Shown here piece after piece: positions 40,465 through 43,960 of a stretch of 64,000 bases of DNA. Below the pieces are notes generated by a model. It saw only the letters and a list, made by a program, of their open reading frames with translations, was not told where the DNA came from and did no database searches. The translations under genes and the position numbers were made by a program. Within the stretch, counting starts at the first letter, position 1. Each line of letters opens with the position of its first letter. Source of the DNA: Herpetosiphon geysericola (GTDB lineage: Bacteria > Chloroflexota > Chloroflexia > Chloroflexales > Herpetosiphonaceae); contig NZ_LGKP01000019.1 in assembly GCF_001306135.1 (NCBI RefSeq), positions 1-64,000 on the forward strand. Direction: 5' to 3'.

Positions 40465-41076
40465 CTACCGCAACAACCCCAATACTTGCTGAATTTCTGG
40501 ATACTCGCTAAACGCTTGTAAATCGGCGCGGGCCTGTTGCATCAATGGCTGGGGATCGTTGCCGTTACGTTGCGCACTCAGTGCATCGCTAATCGTTAAT
40601 TCTGCATCGCTGAGGGCATGGCGGAACGGGCTGCGTTGGCTGCGCGCCATTGGCAACAAATGTTGGATCATCTGGGCTGCTTGTTGCAGGCTTGAAGATG
40701 TTTGGCCTGTGTGCTGATTGACCGTAATCGTGCCTGTATTAACTCCGGTTACCACGCCGTAAACCGAACTGTTATTGAGATTCACCGTGCCTGTATTTTG
40801 CACAGGCGCTTGCTGGCGATAATGTTCAAGCACAGTTTGTAACGAGGCTCCGCGAGCTGGATCGCTTTGGTTGCTATGCCCTCGTTGGCCCAGCACCAAA
40901 TTAATTTGTTCGAGCATGGCTTGGGTTTGGCTAATTTGGGCTTGGGTTTCCGGCGGAACGCTACCAGCGCCCCATTGGCCAGCCTGCTGAGCTAAAATGC
41001 TCAAATTTTTGCGATGCTGCGCGCGTAAATCGTATAAGCTTTGGGTGCTCATTTGCTCTAACATCGAAAGTTGCAT
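40465..41076 (-). CDS. small partner protein of the NACHT/FGE-fold ATPase
   Basis: A 203-residue protein of unknown family. Residues 1-75 are helical (MQLSMLEQMSTQSLYDLRAQ...). About 95-125 is a polar, strand-like segment with NTG repeats (QNTGTVNLNNSSVYGVV, GVNTGTITVNQHTG). About 130-203 is helical again. The NTG segment resembles the QVYGSSVMTNLGHVWINQV stretch in the next gene upstream, and both follow a helical N-terminus, so the two may interact. The ATG at 41076 has GGAG and lies 10 bp after the stop of the NACHT gene; the two are an operon. Confidence 0.7.
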   Translation of the reverse strand: MQLSMLEQMSTQSLYDLRAQHRKNLSILAQQAGQWGAGSVPPETQAQISQTQAMLEQINLVLGQRGHSNQSDPARGASLQTVLEHYRQQAPVQNTGTVNLNNSSVYGVVTGVNTGTITVNQHTGQTSSSLQQAAQMIQHLLPMARSQRSPFRHALSDAELTISDALSAQRNGNDPQPLMQQARADLQAFSEYPEIQQVLGLLR

Positions 41077-41086
41077 ATGAAGCTCC

Positions 41087-43960
41087 TTATTCTGCGTGGC
41101 CAATAATTAAGCGCACACCAATGTTGGGGCCATGGCTAAACGGGCGATGATGCAGCCGCGAACGGCAACGGGCAAAATAGCGATTATGAAACCACGAGCC
41201 ACCGCGCACCGCCACCACCACATCACGATGTTGCAAGCGCCGATTGCGAGTTATTTGCGGGTCAAGCTCAGGGTCGCGATTGACGCTATTTGTCCATTCG
41301 CAGACATTGCCCGCCAAATCCATCGGCCCATCGCTCCACGTGCCATAGGGAAACATGCCAACTGGCGTTGGTTGCTCAAGCTCGCTTTCGCTGGTGTTGG
41401 CATGATCATTGCGCCATTCATCGCCCCATGGATATTCGCGGTTCGTATGTTGGCTGGCTGCTAGTTGCCATTCGGCCTCGCTGGGCAAGCGTACCACCAA
41501 ATTGTGGCCAAGCGCATCAAGCTGAGGGCGCAGTTGTTGGGTTAGCCACGTACAAAAGGCATTCGCTTCATACCAATTGATGCCGACGATTGGCTGGTTT
41601 GGGTGATTAAAGCGTTCGTTATGCCATAAATCGGGCAAGCGGCGCGGCGCGGCCCATGGCGGCAATCCATGCAACCACGAAGGGTCGCCGCGTCGCCAGT
41701 GACGGGCATCGTCGTGTTGCCACCATTGATCATCCAAGTAGCCACGGGCCGCAATAAATTGGCTATATTCAAGGTTGGTCAACAAATAGCGGCTCATCCA
41801 AAAGCGCTCAACGCTATAAGTTTGGGGCCGCGCATGGGGATCTTCAATCTCAACGCTGCCTGGATTAATGCACACAACTCGCTCGGTGAGCGCGATCAAG
41901 GCTCCATCTTCGCCAATAAAACGCGTGTCGCCAATTGCGCCCAACACTAAGGCCGCGCGCATGCGGGTTGGAAAGGCAATGCGTGGTGGTGCCCAACGCC
42001 GCACGCCGCGACTGCTGCCGCTCAGGCCGCCAATATTTTTGAGATGATTAATTGCTTGTTGCCAGAGATTGCGCCGTCCAGCGCTTGCGACTTTGGCCTT
42101 GCCAATTGCCAAGAGCAAATGCGAGCCTTGCACCTGTTCATCGGGCATGCCACCAAGCAAATCTTGAATGACCCCAAAAATGAAGCTTTGTTTTTGAATG
42201 TAGGGCGCAAAATTGGCCATGTAATGCAAGCAAACCCGCCAATGCTCGCTGCCAGAGCGTTCGATACATTCATCGTGGCGCTCTTGATTGAGCAAATACA
42301 TGCCAGCCAAAAATTGCTGAAACAAGCGATGAGCAAAATCATAATGCGGATTATCTTGTTGATTGTTGCTGGCCTCTTGCAACAAGCCATTGCTATTGAT
42401 CAGGCGCAAGGTTGCATTGCCCACTGCCTGCGAGAGCATATGAATTTGATTGGGATGCGGATACCGATCGCTGTAATAGCGCTGCACGACGGTGTTAATT
42501 TGCTGCAAGCTGAGCAGCGCTTTGCCCTGAATTTCCTCTTGGCTATGGGCATAATAGCCCAACAACGCCACCAAATCGTAAAGATCTTCGAGCGAAACCG
42601 CGATTGCTTCGGGCGCACGGCGTTTGAGCAATTCGTCGATACAAATATGCAATAACTTGCCTTCGCTCTCAGGTAAATCGGTATGCACCATATTGACATG
42701 CACCGTCAGCGCCAGCAGCAACGGCGTGCGCGTTAGTTCATGCAACATTCCCGATTTCATCAGCTCGGCGTGCAGTTTGGCGTGTTTTTTGCGAATGCTC
42801 ACAATATCGGCGTGCGAGGCATGCAAGCGGCCCAATTCGCTATAGTAATTGGTGATATAGACGTGTTGAGCCGTTAGATCAAACGGCATCAATTGAATTG
42901 TTGGCCAATCGTAGAGCTGGCGCGAGGGAAACGGCGGCGGCAGCGGATGCTCATAATCAAAAACCCGACAGGTAACGATAATCCGACTTTTGTGAAACAT
43001 GCGCTGAGCATGCTCAATACAGCGCTTGACTGCGGCCAGATGTTCGGGCTGCACTTCATCGAGGCCATCGAGTAGCAACAAGCCATTGCCGTTGATCAAC
43101 AATTCCTCGATGGCATCTTGCAGGCGTTGTTGGCGCTCGACCTCGACCCGCTGAAAGCCAACATCACTGTTGATGGAGCGTTGGCCGAAGCGTCCAGCCA
43201 ATTGCAGCTCGGTCACGACTTCCCAAAATGCGTCGGCGGTTTGTTGCTCTGGGTTAGCTGGCGGTTGAACATGTTTGAGCCGCACGCGCACTGGCACAAG
43301 TTTGGTATGCATCCAACCTTGGCTATGCAAAAACTCAGCTTTGCCAGGGTCGAGCAGGGCCGCCGCTTGGGCCGAGGCCAAATACGAAACCACGGTAGTT
43401 TTGCCGCCGCCTGGCACGCCCAAAATCACAGCTTTTTGGTGTTGAATTTGGTTGAGCGCCTTGAGAATTGAATCTTGCAGCTGAGGGCGCGGCTGCGGGC
43501 TACCCAACAGCAACGATTGCAACAAGGCATCGCCAGCAATCGGCCCATAAAAATCTGCTTGCAGCATGGTAAAAACCCGTTGCAGCGACATGCGCTCTTG
43601 ATCGCTATCCTGCACATCGGTGCCAAGCACCAAGCGATCGGCGTTGCCTTGAATTTGAGCCAAATAGTGCAAAATTAATTGATCGGTGCGTTCGCCAGTG
43701 CTCAGCGGCGCATTAAACACCTGATTGATCCAAACGTGACCAAGGTTGGTCATAACGCTGGAACCATACACTTGGCCTTGGCTAGCAGCAGGGGCTGGCG
43801 GTTCGGCAACGATTGCAGCTTGTTGGGCGATTTGGCTCAGTTGCTGTTGATGTTGGCCAATCATTTGATCGAGCGCTTCGATCAGATCTTGGTCGTTCTC
43901 TTGGGCGCGGCGAGCTTGGAGGTTGATAATTTTCTGACGGATTCGCTCAACATCGTGCAT
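41087..43960 (-). CDS. NACHT ATPase with C-terminal FGE-fold (SUMF1-like) domain lacking catalytic cysteines
   Basis: A 957-residue STAND-type protein. N-terminal helical region (1-60) and strand-like spacer; NACHT with Walker A GVPGGGKTT (181-189) and Walker B LLLLDGLDEV (294-303); a helical middle (about 430-650); and from about 690 an FGE/SUMF1 domain (VRLPSEAEWQLAA, YPWGDEW, MDLAGNVCEWT, VRGGSWF, IGVRL). The two cysteines that make formylglycine-generating enzymes active are replaced (His925 and Ala930), so this domain probably senses or binds a ligand. NACHT proteins often act in bacterial antiphage defence; that role here is inferred. The ATG at 43960 is chosen from context. Confidence 0.85.
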   Translation of the reverse strand: MHDVERIRQKIINLQARRAQENDQDLIEALDQMIGQHQQQLSQIAQQAAIVAEPPAPAASQGQVYGSSVMTNLGHVWINQVFNAPLSTGERTDQLILHYLAQIQGNADRLVLGTDVQDSDQERMSLQRVFTMLQADFYGPIAGDALLQSLLLGSPQPRPQLQDSILKALNQIQHQKAVILGVPGGGKTTVVSYLASAQAAALLDPGKAEFLHSQGWMHTKLVPVRVRLKHVQPPANPEQQTADAFWEVVTELQLAGRFGQRSINSDVGFQRVEVERQQRLQDAIEELLINGNGLLLLDGLDEVQPEHLAAVKRCIEHAQRMFHKSRIIVTCRVFDYEHPLPPPFPSRQLYDWPTIQLMPFDLTAQHVYITNYYSELGRLHASHADIVSIRKKHAKLHAELMKSGMLHELTRTPLLLALTVHVNMVHTDLPESEGKLLHICIDELLKRRAPEAIAVSLEDLYDLVALLGYYAHSQEEIQGKALLSLQQINTVVQRYYSDRYPHPNQIHMLSQAVGNATLRLINSNGLLQEASNNQQDNPHYDFAHRLFQQFLAGMYLLNQERHDECIERSGSEHWRVCLHYMANFAPYIQKQSFIFGVIQDLLGGMPDEQVQGSHLLLAIGKAKVASAGRRNLWQQAINHLKNIGGLSGSSRGVRRWAPPRIAFPTRMRAALVLGAIGDTRFIGEDGALIALTERVVCINPGSVEIEDPHARPQTYSVERFWMSRYLLTNLEYSQFIAARGYLDDQWWQHDDARHWRRGDPSWLHGLPPWAAPRRLPDLWHNERFNHPNQPIVGINWYEANAFCTWLTQQLRPQLDALGHNLVVRLPSEAEWQLAASQHTNREYPWGDEWRNDHANTSESELEQPTPVGMFPYGTWSDGPMDLAGNVCEWTNSVNRDPELDPQITRNRRLQHRDVVVAVRGGSWFHNRYFARCRSRLHHRPFSHGPNIGVRLIIGHAE

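Follow-up and report, generated by a model that had tools for sequence, protein, structure and literature searches.

A near-invariant NACHT-FGE receptor gene and its small partner in Herpetosiphon: a possible NLR-type receptor-adaptor pair

In a two-gene locus of Herpetosiphon geysericola, a NACHT-FGE protein and a small partner appear to be the receptor and the adaptor of an NLR-type signalling pathway, a reading that we consider moderately probable. The pair is possibly a beta-amyloid-like relay to caspase or CHAT proteases. The locus lies in the window analysed here, a stretch of 64,000 nucleotides (contig NZ_LGKP01000019.1, positions 1 to 64,000), and the case is built from sequence: domains, linkage, conservation and motif sharing.

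Herpetosiphon is a filamentous gliding bacterium. Bacterial relatives of NLRs, the immune sensors of animals, have been studied mostly as mobile, fast-evolving phage sensors, and several animal NLRs monitor an invariant signal. The receptor described here holds a fixed, syntenic place and is more strongly constrained than the Era GTPase next to it, which suggests that among bacterial NLRs, too, some watch for a signal that does not vary. Through the shared motif and the helical hairpin described below, the proposed path from receptor to adaptor and on to a caspase-like protease becomes concrete enough to test in multicellular bacteria, and within Herpetosiphon the variable accessory paralogues provide a built-in comparison for the invariant core copy.

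The receptor and its partner

The receptor gene (41087..43960, minus strand; 957 aa from the ATG) is defined by its ORF, by Pfam and by AlphaFold2, and the partner gene (40465..41076, minus strand; 203 aa from the ATG) by its ORF and by conservation. The two ORFs of the initial annotation hold in strand and coordinates (43960 to 41087 and 41076 to 40465), and we take both to be real genes because they are conserved in five other species; named relatives of the receptor are found in H. giganteus, H. llansteffanensis and H. aurantiacus. The partner gene begins ten bases past the receptor stop. Because its Shine-Dalgarno sequence (AAGGAG, 41083..41088, minus strand) overlaps the receptor stop codon (41089-41087), translation of the two genes is probably coupled.

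The receptor opens with a helical hairpin predicted by AlphaFold2 (residues 2-49; 43814..43957, minus strand), with helices at 2-20 and 24-49 and a block pLDDT of about 90 over residues 11-40. Residues 49-86 are predicted to be disordered (pLDDT under 50) and include a degenerate copy of a motif shared with the partner (residues 60-82, SQGQVYGSSVMTNLGHVWINQVF; 43715..43783, minus strand). The NACHT NTPase domain follows (residues 161-345; 42926..43480, minus strand). Its Pfam match is sub-threshold only (0.0023), and it is recognized also by its Walker motifs and by fold. Both Walker motifs, A (GVPGGGKTT, 181-189) and B (LLLLDGLDE, 294-302), are intact, as had been read from the sequence at the outset. 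The helical middle region (residues 346-690; 41891..42925, minus strand; AlphaFold2) is the most constrained part of the protein, with dN/dS of 0.009-0.016. The FGE / C-type-lectin-like domain, assigned by Pfam and fold, completes the receptor (residues 695-957; 41090..41878, minus strand), and residues 695-952 match FGE-sulfatase PF03781 (E=2.1e-38). Structure prediction of each protein singly had been proposed as a check; in a fold search, the predicted NACHT region resembles NLRC4, NLRP3 and NOD2 (Z about 21-25), and the C-terminus resembles ToxD, EgtB, human FGE and a Treponema denticola variable protein.

The initial annotation had placed His925 and Ala930 at the positions of the FGE catalytic cysteines (C336/C341 in human FGE), and the alignment confirms this. 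The loss is nevertheless no distinctive trait of this receptor: the catalytic pair occurs in 0 of 30 aligned NACHT-FGE proteins. Because none of these homologues has the pair, the domain is best read as a binding fold; it would be non-catalytic in the FGE sense, and the sensor role first suggested for it is plausible. It could instead be an enzyme, oxidase or sulfoxide-synthase-like, with the partner as carrier or substrate, and its similarity in fold and sequence to EgtB, PvdO and FGE fits that idea. We regard it as very improbable in view of the missing cysteines and of the description of STAND-linked FGS/FGE domains as proposed ligand-binding modules (PMC8195603).

The partner begins with a mobile helical hairpin domain (residues 9-72; 40861..41052, minus strand), delimited by AlphaFold2 (helices 11-35 and 42-64), by profile A3 and by fusions. 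Its central segment, residues 92-126, is predicted by AlphaFold2 to be disordered and holds the partner's own copy of the shared motif (residues 93-123; 40708..40800, minus strand), within which the NTG repeats noticed earlier (NTGTVNLNNSSVYGVVTGVNTGTITVNQ) are real. A predicted four-helix bundle, shared with the C-termini of some caspase proteins, ends the protein (residues 128-203; 40468..40695, minus strand; AlphaFold2).

Searches of the partner against Pfam, NCBIfam, PADLOC and PDB sequences returned coiled-coil-like noise only, and its hairpin family has no Pfam match. The fold search yielded matches to a hairpin of generic type (ribosomal L29-like, Z about 8-9) and to four-helix bundles (Z up to 11), which are too generic to inform and were set aside as clues to identity. 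A Bell-type effector was also rejected, the highest 19-residue hydropathy being only 0.43 and located in the motif. A search for relatives in phages or plasmids found no match for the partner.

The shared motif and the hairpin in other proteins

Related receptors bear the motif G-x-N-x-G-T-I near the N-terminus; in the accessory Herpetosiphon paralogues the protein begins with it. The resemblance first noticed between the receptor N-terminus and the NTG segment of the partner is above chance. Compared directly with the partner, receptor residues 60-80 are matched by 21/2000 shuffles, and a profile made from receptor N-termini alone detects the partner motif at residues 96-117 with 17.3 bits and 0/1000 shuffles (shuffle maximum 4.2); since shuffling does not keep the local composition, these and the shuffle figures below are guides rather than exact probabilities. 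The same profile detects caspases adjoining STAND genes, with 14.5 bits at one locus (L080) and 14.3 bits at another (L178), the latter being the caspase beside the H. aurantiacus plasmid receptors. It also finds two proteins with an N-terminal hydrophobic helix, which we read as Bell-like (14.8 and 16.5 bits), and it is negative on Era, NYN, the CHAT protein discussed below and an unrelated caspase. This selectivity favours the receptor-adaptor reading and strengthens the idea, present in the initial annotation, that the two proteins might pair through this segment. The relatives L052 and L093 possess a hydrophobic helix, unlike the partner itself.

In the reverse direction, a profile of the effector-side motif detects 9/30 NACHT-FGE N-termini above all 9000 shuffles, again in favour of a receptor and its adaptor, and does not recognize the window receptor itself. 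When the window receptor is scored with a leave-out profile (its own orthologue group excluded), 30/3000 shuffles do as well, compared with 1/3000 for the orthologue in genome G007 and 0/3000 for that in G008; the degenerate motif does align with clearer copies in two relatives' orthologues, that of G008 included. The weakness of the receptor's own motif (1% of shuffles) counts against the receptor-adaptor reading. It also leaves some room for a convergent Gly/Asn-rich beta linker with no pairing role, since the motif is short and of low complexity and other such linkers exist, for example in the CHAT protein. We think convergence unlikely, because G-x-N-x-G-T-I stands above all shuffles in receptors and neighbouring effectors and is absent from the controls, and because receptor and effector genes lying side by side both carry it.

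One such locus is on H. aurantiacus plasmid CP000876.1 (L178:2687-13250), where three tandem NACHT-FGE genes with the motif at their N-termini lie beside a C14 caspase with the same motif; it offers a clean receptor-effector set for experiments. This sharing, together with the predicted disorder of the motif in both window proteins, again speaks for a receptor and its adaptor.

The initial annotation had found no known effector domain and proposed that the output might be new. The first part stands: the named EADs and effector domains (EAD1/2/7/8, bDLD3, TIR, caspase) have no Pfam match in the receptor, the partner or the hairpin family. The second part is weakened by the relatives. Within the class, partner-type hairpins recur at the C-terminus of CHAT proteins and also with TIR, FHA, NB-ARC and NACHT-like ATPases, and the motif plus helical bundle of the partner forms the C-terminus of some C14 caspase proteins. 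These fusions favour the receptor-adaptor reading. With the same parts attached in relatives to caspase, CHAT and TIR enzymes, it seems likelier that the adaptor hands on to a protease of a known class than that the output is new.

In Herpetosiphon, the best candidate for that protease is a core CHAT-linker-hairpin protein, put forward on two grounds, its hairpin and its co-occurrence. It is present in 7/7 genomes of the family that are at least 90% complete (six Herpetosiphon and G008), which supports a receptor with an adaptor. On the other side, it was not detected in G007 (genome 76% complete) and lacks the shared motif by the receptor-only profile, and both points weaken that reading. Any link to the partner would run through the hairpin, since the motif is missing. 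Where the surroundings were read, the gene (L137:5181-6740) and its orthologues (L190-L194) adjoin a mobA-like gene, yet identity to the copy of the window species spans 46 to 93%, as though alleles had been exchanged. Another core protein, of zinc-ribbon/FHA type (L136:5584-7347 and orthologues, also in G008 as L142), has two weak copies of the hairpin domain.

Conservation of the locus

The pair is syntenic in 6/6 Herpetosiphon genomes, with the same neighbours on both sides, allowing for contig ends. In one other genus of the family, the receptor (46% identity) and the partner (35-39%) are close neighbours, separated by a single ORF. Co-occurrence in other genomes, proposed earlier as a check, is thus found, and this linkage favours the receptor-adaptor reading; in G008, the gene adjoining the receptor is not the partner, which weakens it. 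Receptor identity among Herpetosiphon genomes is 95.6-99.2%. Its dN/dS is 0.018-0.032, compared with 0.053-0.081 for the adjacent Era-type GTPase, and this constraint, too, favours a receptor with its adaptor. Within the receptor, dN/dS is 0.030-0.046 for the FGE domain and about 0.03 for the last 53 residues. The receptor gene belongs to the core set, is inherited vertically and hardly varies.

The flanking genes encode Era, DUF4230, glycosyltransferase, NIF3, Trm112, PRAI, NYN and UbiA proteins, a housekeeping neighbourhood. The sole PADLOC matches on the flanks are generic GTPase matches to Era. For the pair itself, PADLOC-DB returned ZorA for the receptor (E=0.07) and JetC for the partner (E=0.0009, 15 bits), which we read as coiled-coil noise. 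Neither a second copy of the FGE tail nor a template-repeat-like sequence was found in the genome, and diversification of this receptor by a diversity-generating retroelement (DGR) is rejected on the missing template together with the low dN/dS of the tail. The sole RVT_1 match found in the genome sits on another contig. It is a partial match in a 791-aa protein (L100; G000:C21, about 40.2 kb).

The suggestion that the pair might lie in a defence island thus fails, with housekeeping flanks and no meaningful PADLOC model match, and an antiphage-type sensor is disfavoured by a near-invariance unlike that of typical anti-phage sensors. An anti-phage NACHT pair, with an FGE domain that recognizes a protein of the phage and a partner acting as toxic effector or as adaptor, would have precedent: bacterial NACHT and Avs proteins act against phage, and STAND-FGS systems are predicted conflict systems (PMC8195603, PMC10907252). 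The accessory paralogues also fit, being variable in the genus and partly plasmid-borne; nine of them, taken from Herpetosiphon genomes, are only 56-85% identical window by window, with the minimum near the FGE end, and three lie on CP000876.1. The core copy, however, is syntenic and near-invariant among housekeeping genes and has neither a DGR template nor a useful PADLOC match, and we consider an anti-phage role improbable for it. Because of this synteny, low dN/dS, flanking context and lack of a diversity-generating template, the locus looks like a conserved alarm relay and not like the usual, rapidly evolving gene of phage defence.

The same low dN/dS, below that of Era, and the fixed place among housekeeping genes would also suit a housekeeping STAND protein that regulates growth, gliding, predation or development, with the partner as a scaffold and no cell death; the FGE fold does have structural roles, as in PorK/GldK. 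Since the motif and hairpin elsewhere accompany caspase, CHAT and TIR enzymes, we rate such a housekeeping regulator, too, as unlikely.

Proposed relay and relation to known systems

For the receptor-adaptor reading, which we prefer, we infer ligand binding, oligomerization and recruitment of partner and protease as follows. The FGE domain would hold or sense a ligand. With ligand and ATP, the NACHT module would oligomerize, as NLRC4 or NLRP3 does, and the clustered N-terminal motifs, disordered in the monomer, might then come together as beta structure, perhaps of amyloid type, and draw in the partner by way of the partner's own motif. In an ASC-like role, the partner would display its hairpin and its bundle for an effector protease. 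What follows would probably be regulated proteolysis, after which cells of the filament might die or become arrested. The near-invariance of receptor and sensor domain makes it probable that the ligand, too, is conserved, be it a signal of self, of stress or of microbes in general, and not a phage protein that changes fast.

In its fullest form, the proposal is that Herpetosiphon has a core, non-mobile, near-invariant NLR-type pathway of receptor, motif-hairpin adaptor and unlinked CHAT protease, built on an undescribed Chloroflexia beta-motif family and a new hairpin domain, and serving as an inflammasome-like relay for a conserved internal or general signal. We offer it tentatively, as a possibility that more probably fails in some part than holds throughout. 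The logic is that of ASC-type adaptors of animal inflammasomes, in which an NLR-type receptor acts through a small bridging adaptor on a caspase-type protease; the domains are not homologous and the likeness is an analogy only.

STAND-FGE systems and NLR amyloid motifs are already published. The STAND NTPase-FGS conflict systems described by Kaur et al. 2021 (PMC8195603) likewise combine a NACHT/STAND NTPase with a C-terminal FGS domain and a small N-terminal adaptor region, and an adjacent gene repeats the adaptor element, as the shared motif does in the window, where the receptor copy is weak. The window element differs in being a short motif, in a core and invariant copy, without a DGR; in those systems, the DGR link is frequent and not obligatory (PMC8195603). 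DGR-diversified antigen sensors (PMC10907252) also fuse NACHT or nSTAND1 to an FGE/C-type-lectin domain, whereas the window copy lacks a variable repeat, a template repeat and a hypervariable tail.

Published NLR-associated bacterial amyloid motifs (BASS; Dyrka et al. 2020, as presented in PMC7889193, PMC8086366 and PMC9815663) form amyloid and are reported mainly from Actinomycetes, Cyanobacteria and Archaea. There, as in the window, a short beta-prone motif occurs both N-terminally in the receptor and in the protein encoded next to it; the difference is that the window partner lacks a Bell domain or hydrophobic helix, that its motif is central, and that the strict PP core is absent. On inspection, the window motifs GVNTGTI and TNLGHV do not contain this core, NxGxQxGxN, which belongs to the RHIM / PP / BASS3 motif (PMC9815663). 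Three elements are new here: the motif of Chloroflexia, the adaptor with its hairpin, and a core copy that is invariant. The novelty of the motif is provisional, as the literature comparison drew mainly on openly readable papers. In the openly readable literature, no link between Herpetosiphon and NACHT proteins was found beyond a metacaspase survey.

Two further observations concern mobile elements. In sister families, the ORFs as read place reverse transcriptases next to NACHT-FGE genes; those at L057, L059 and L034 probably belong to diversity-generating retroelements. Regions near both ends of contig G000:C8 (L022 and L023) carry identical genes with transposases, possibly reflecting a circular element or an assembly duplication.
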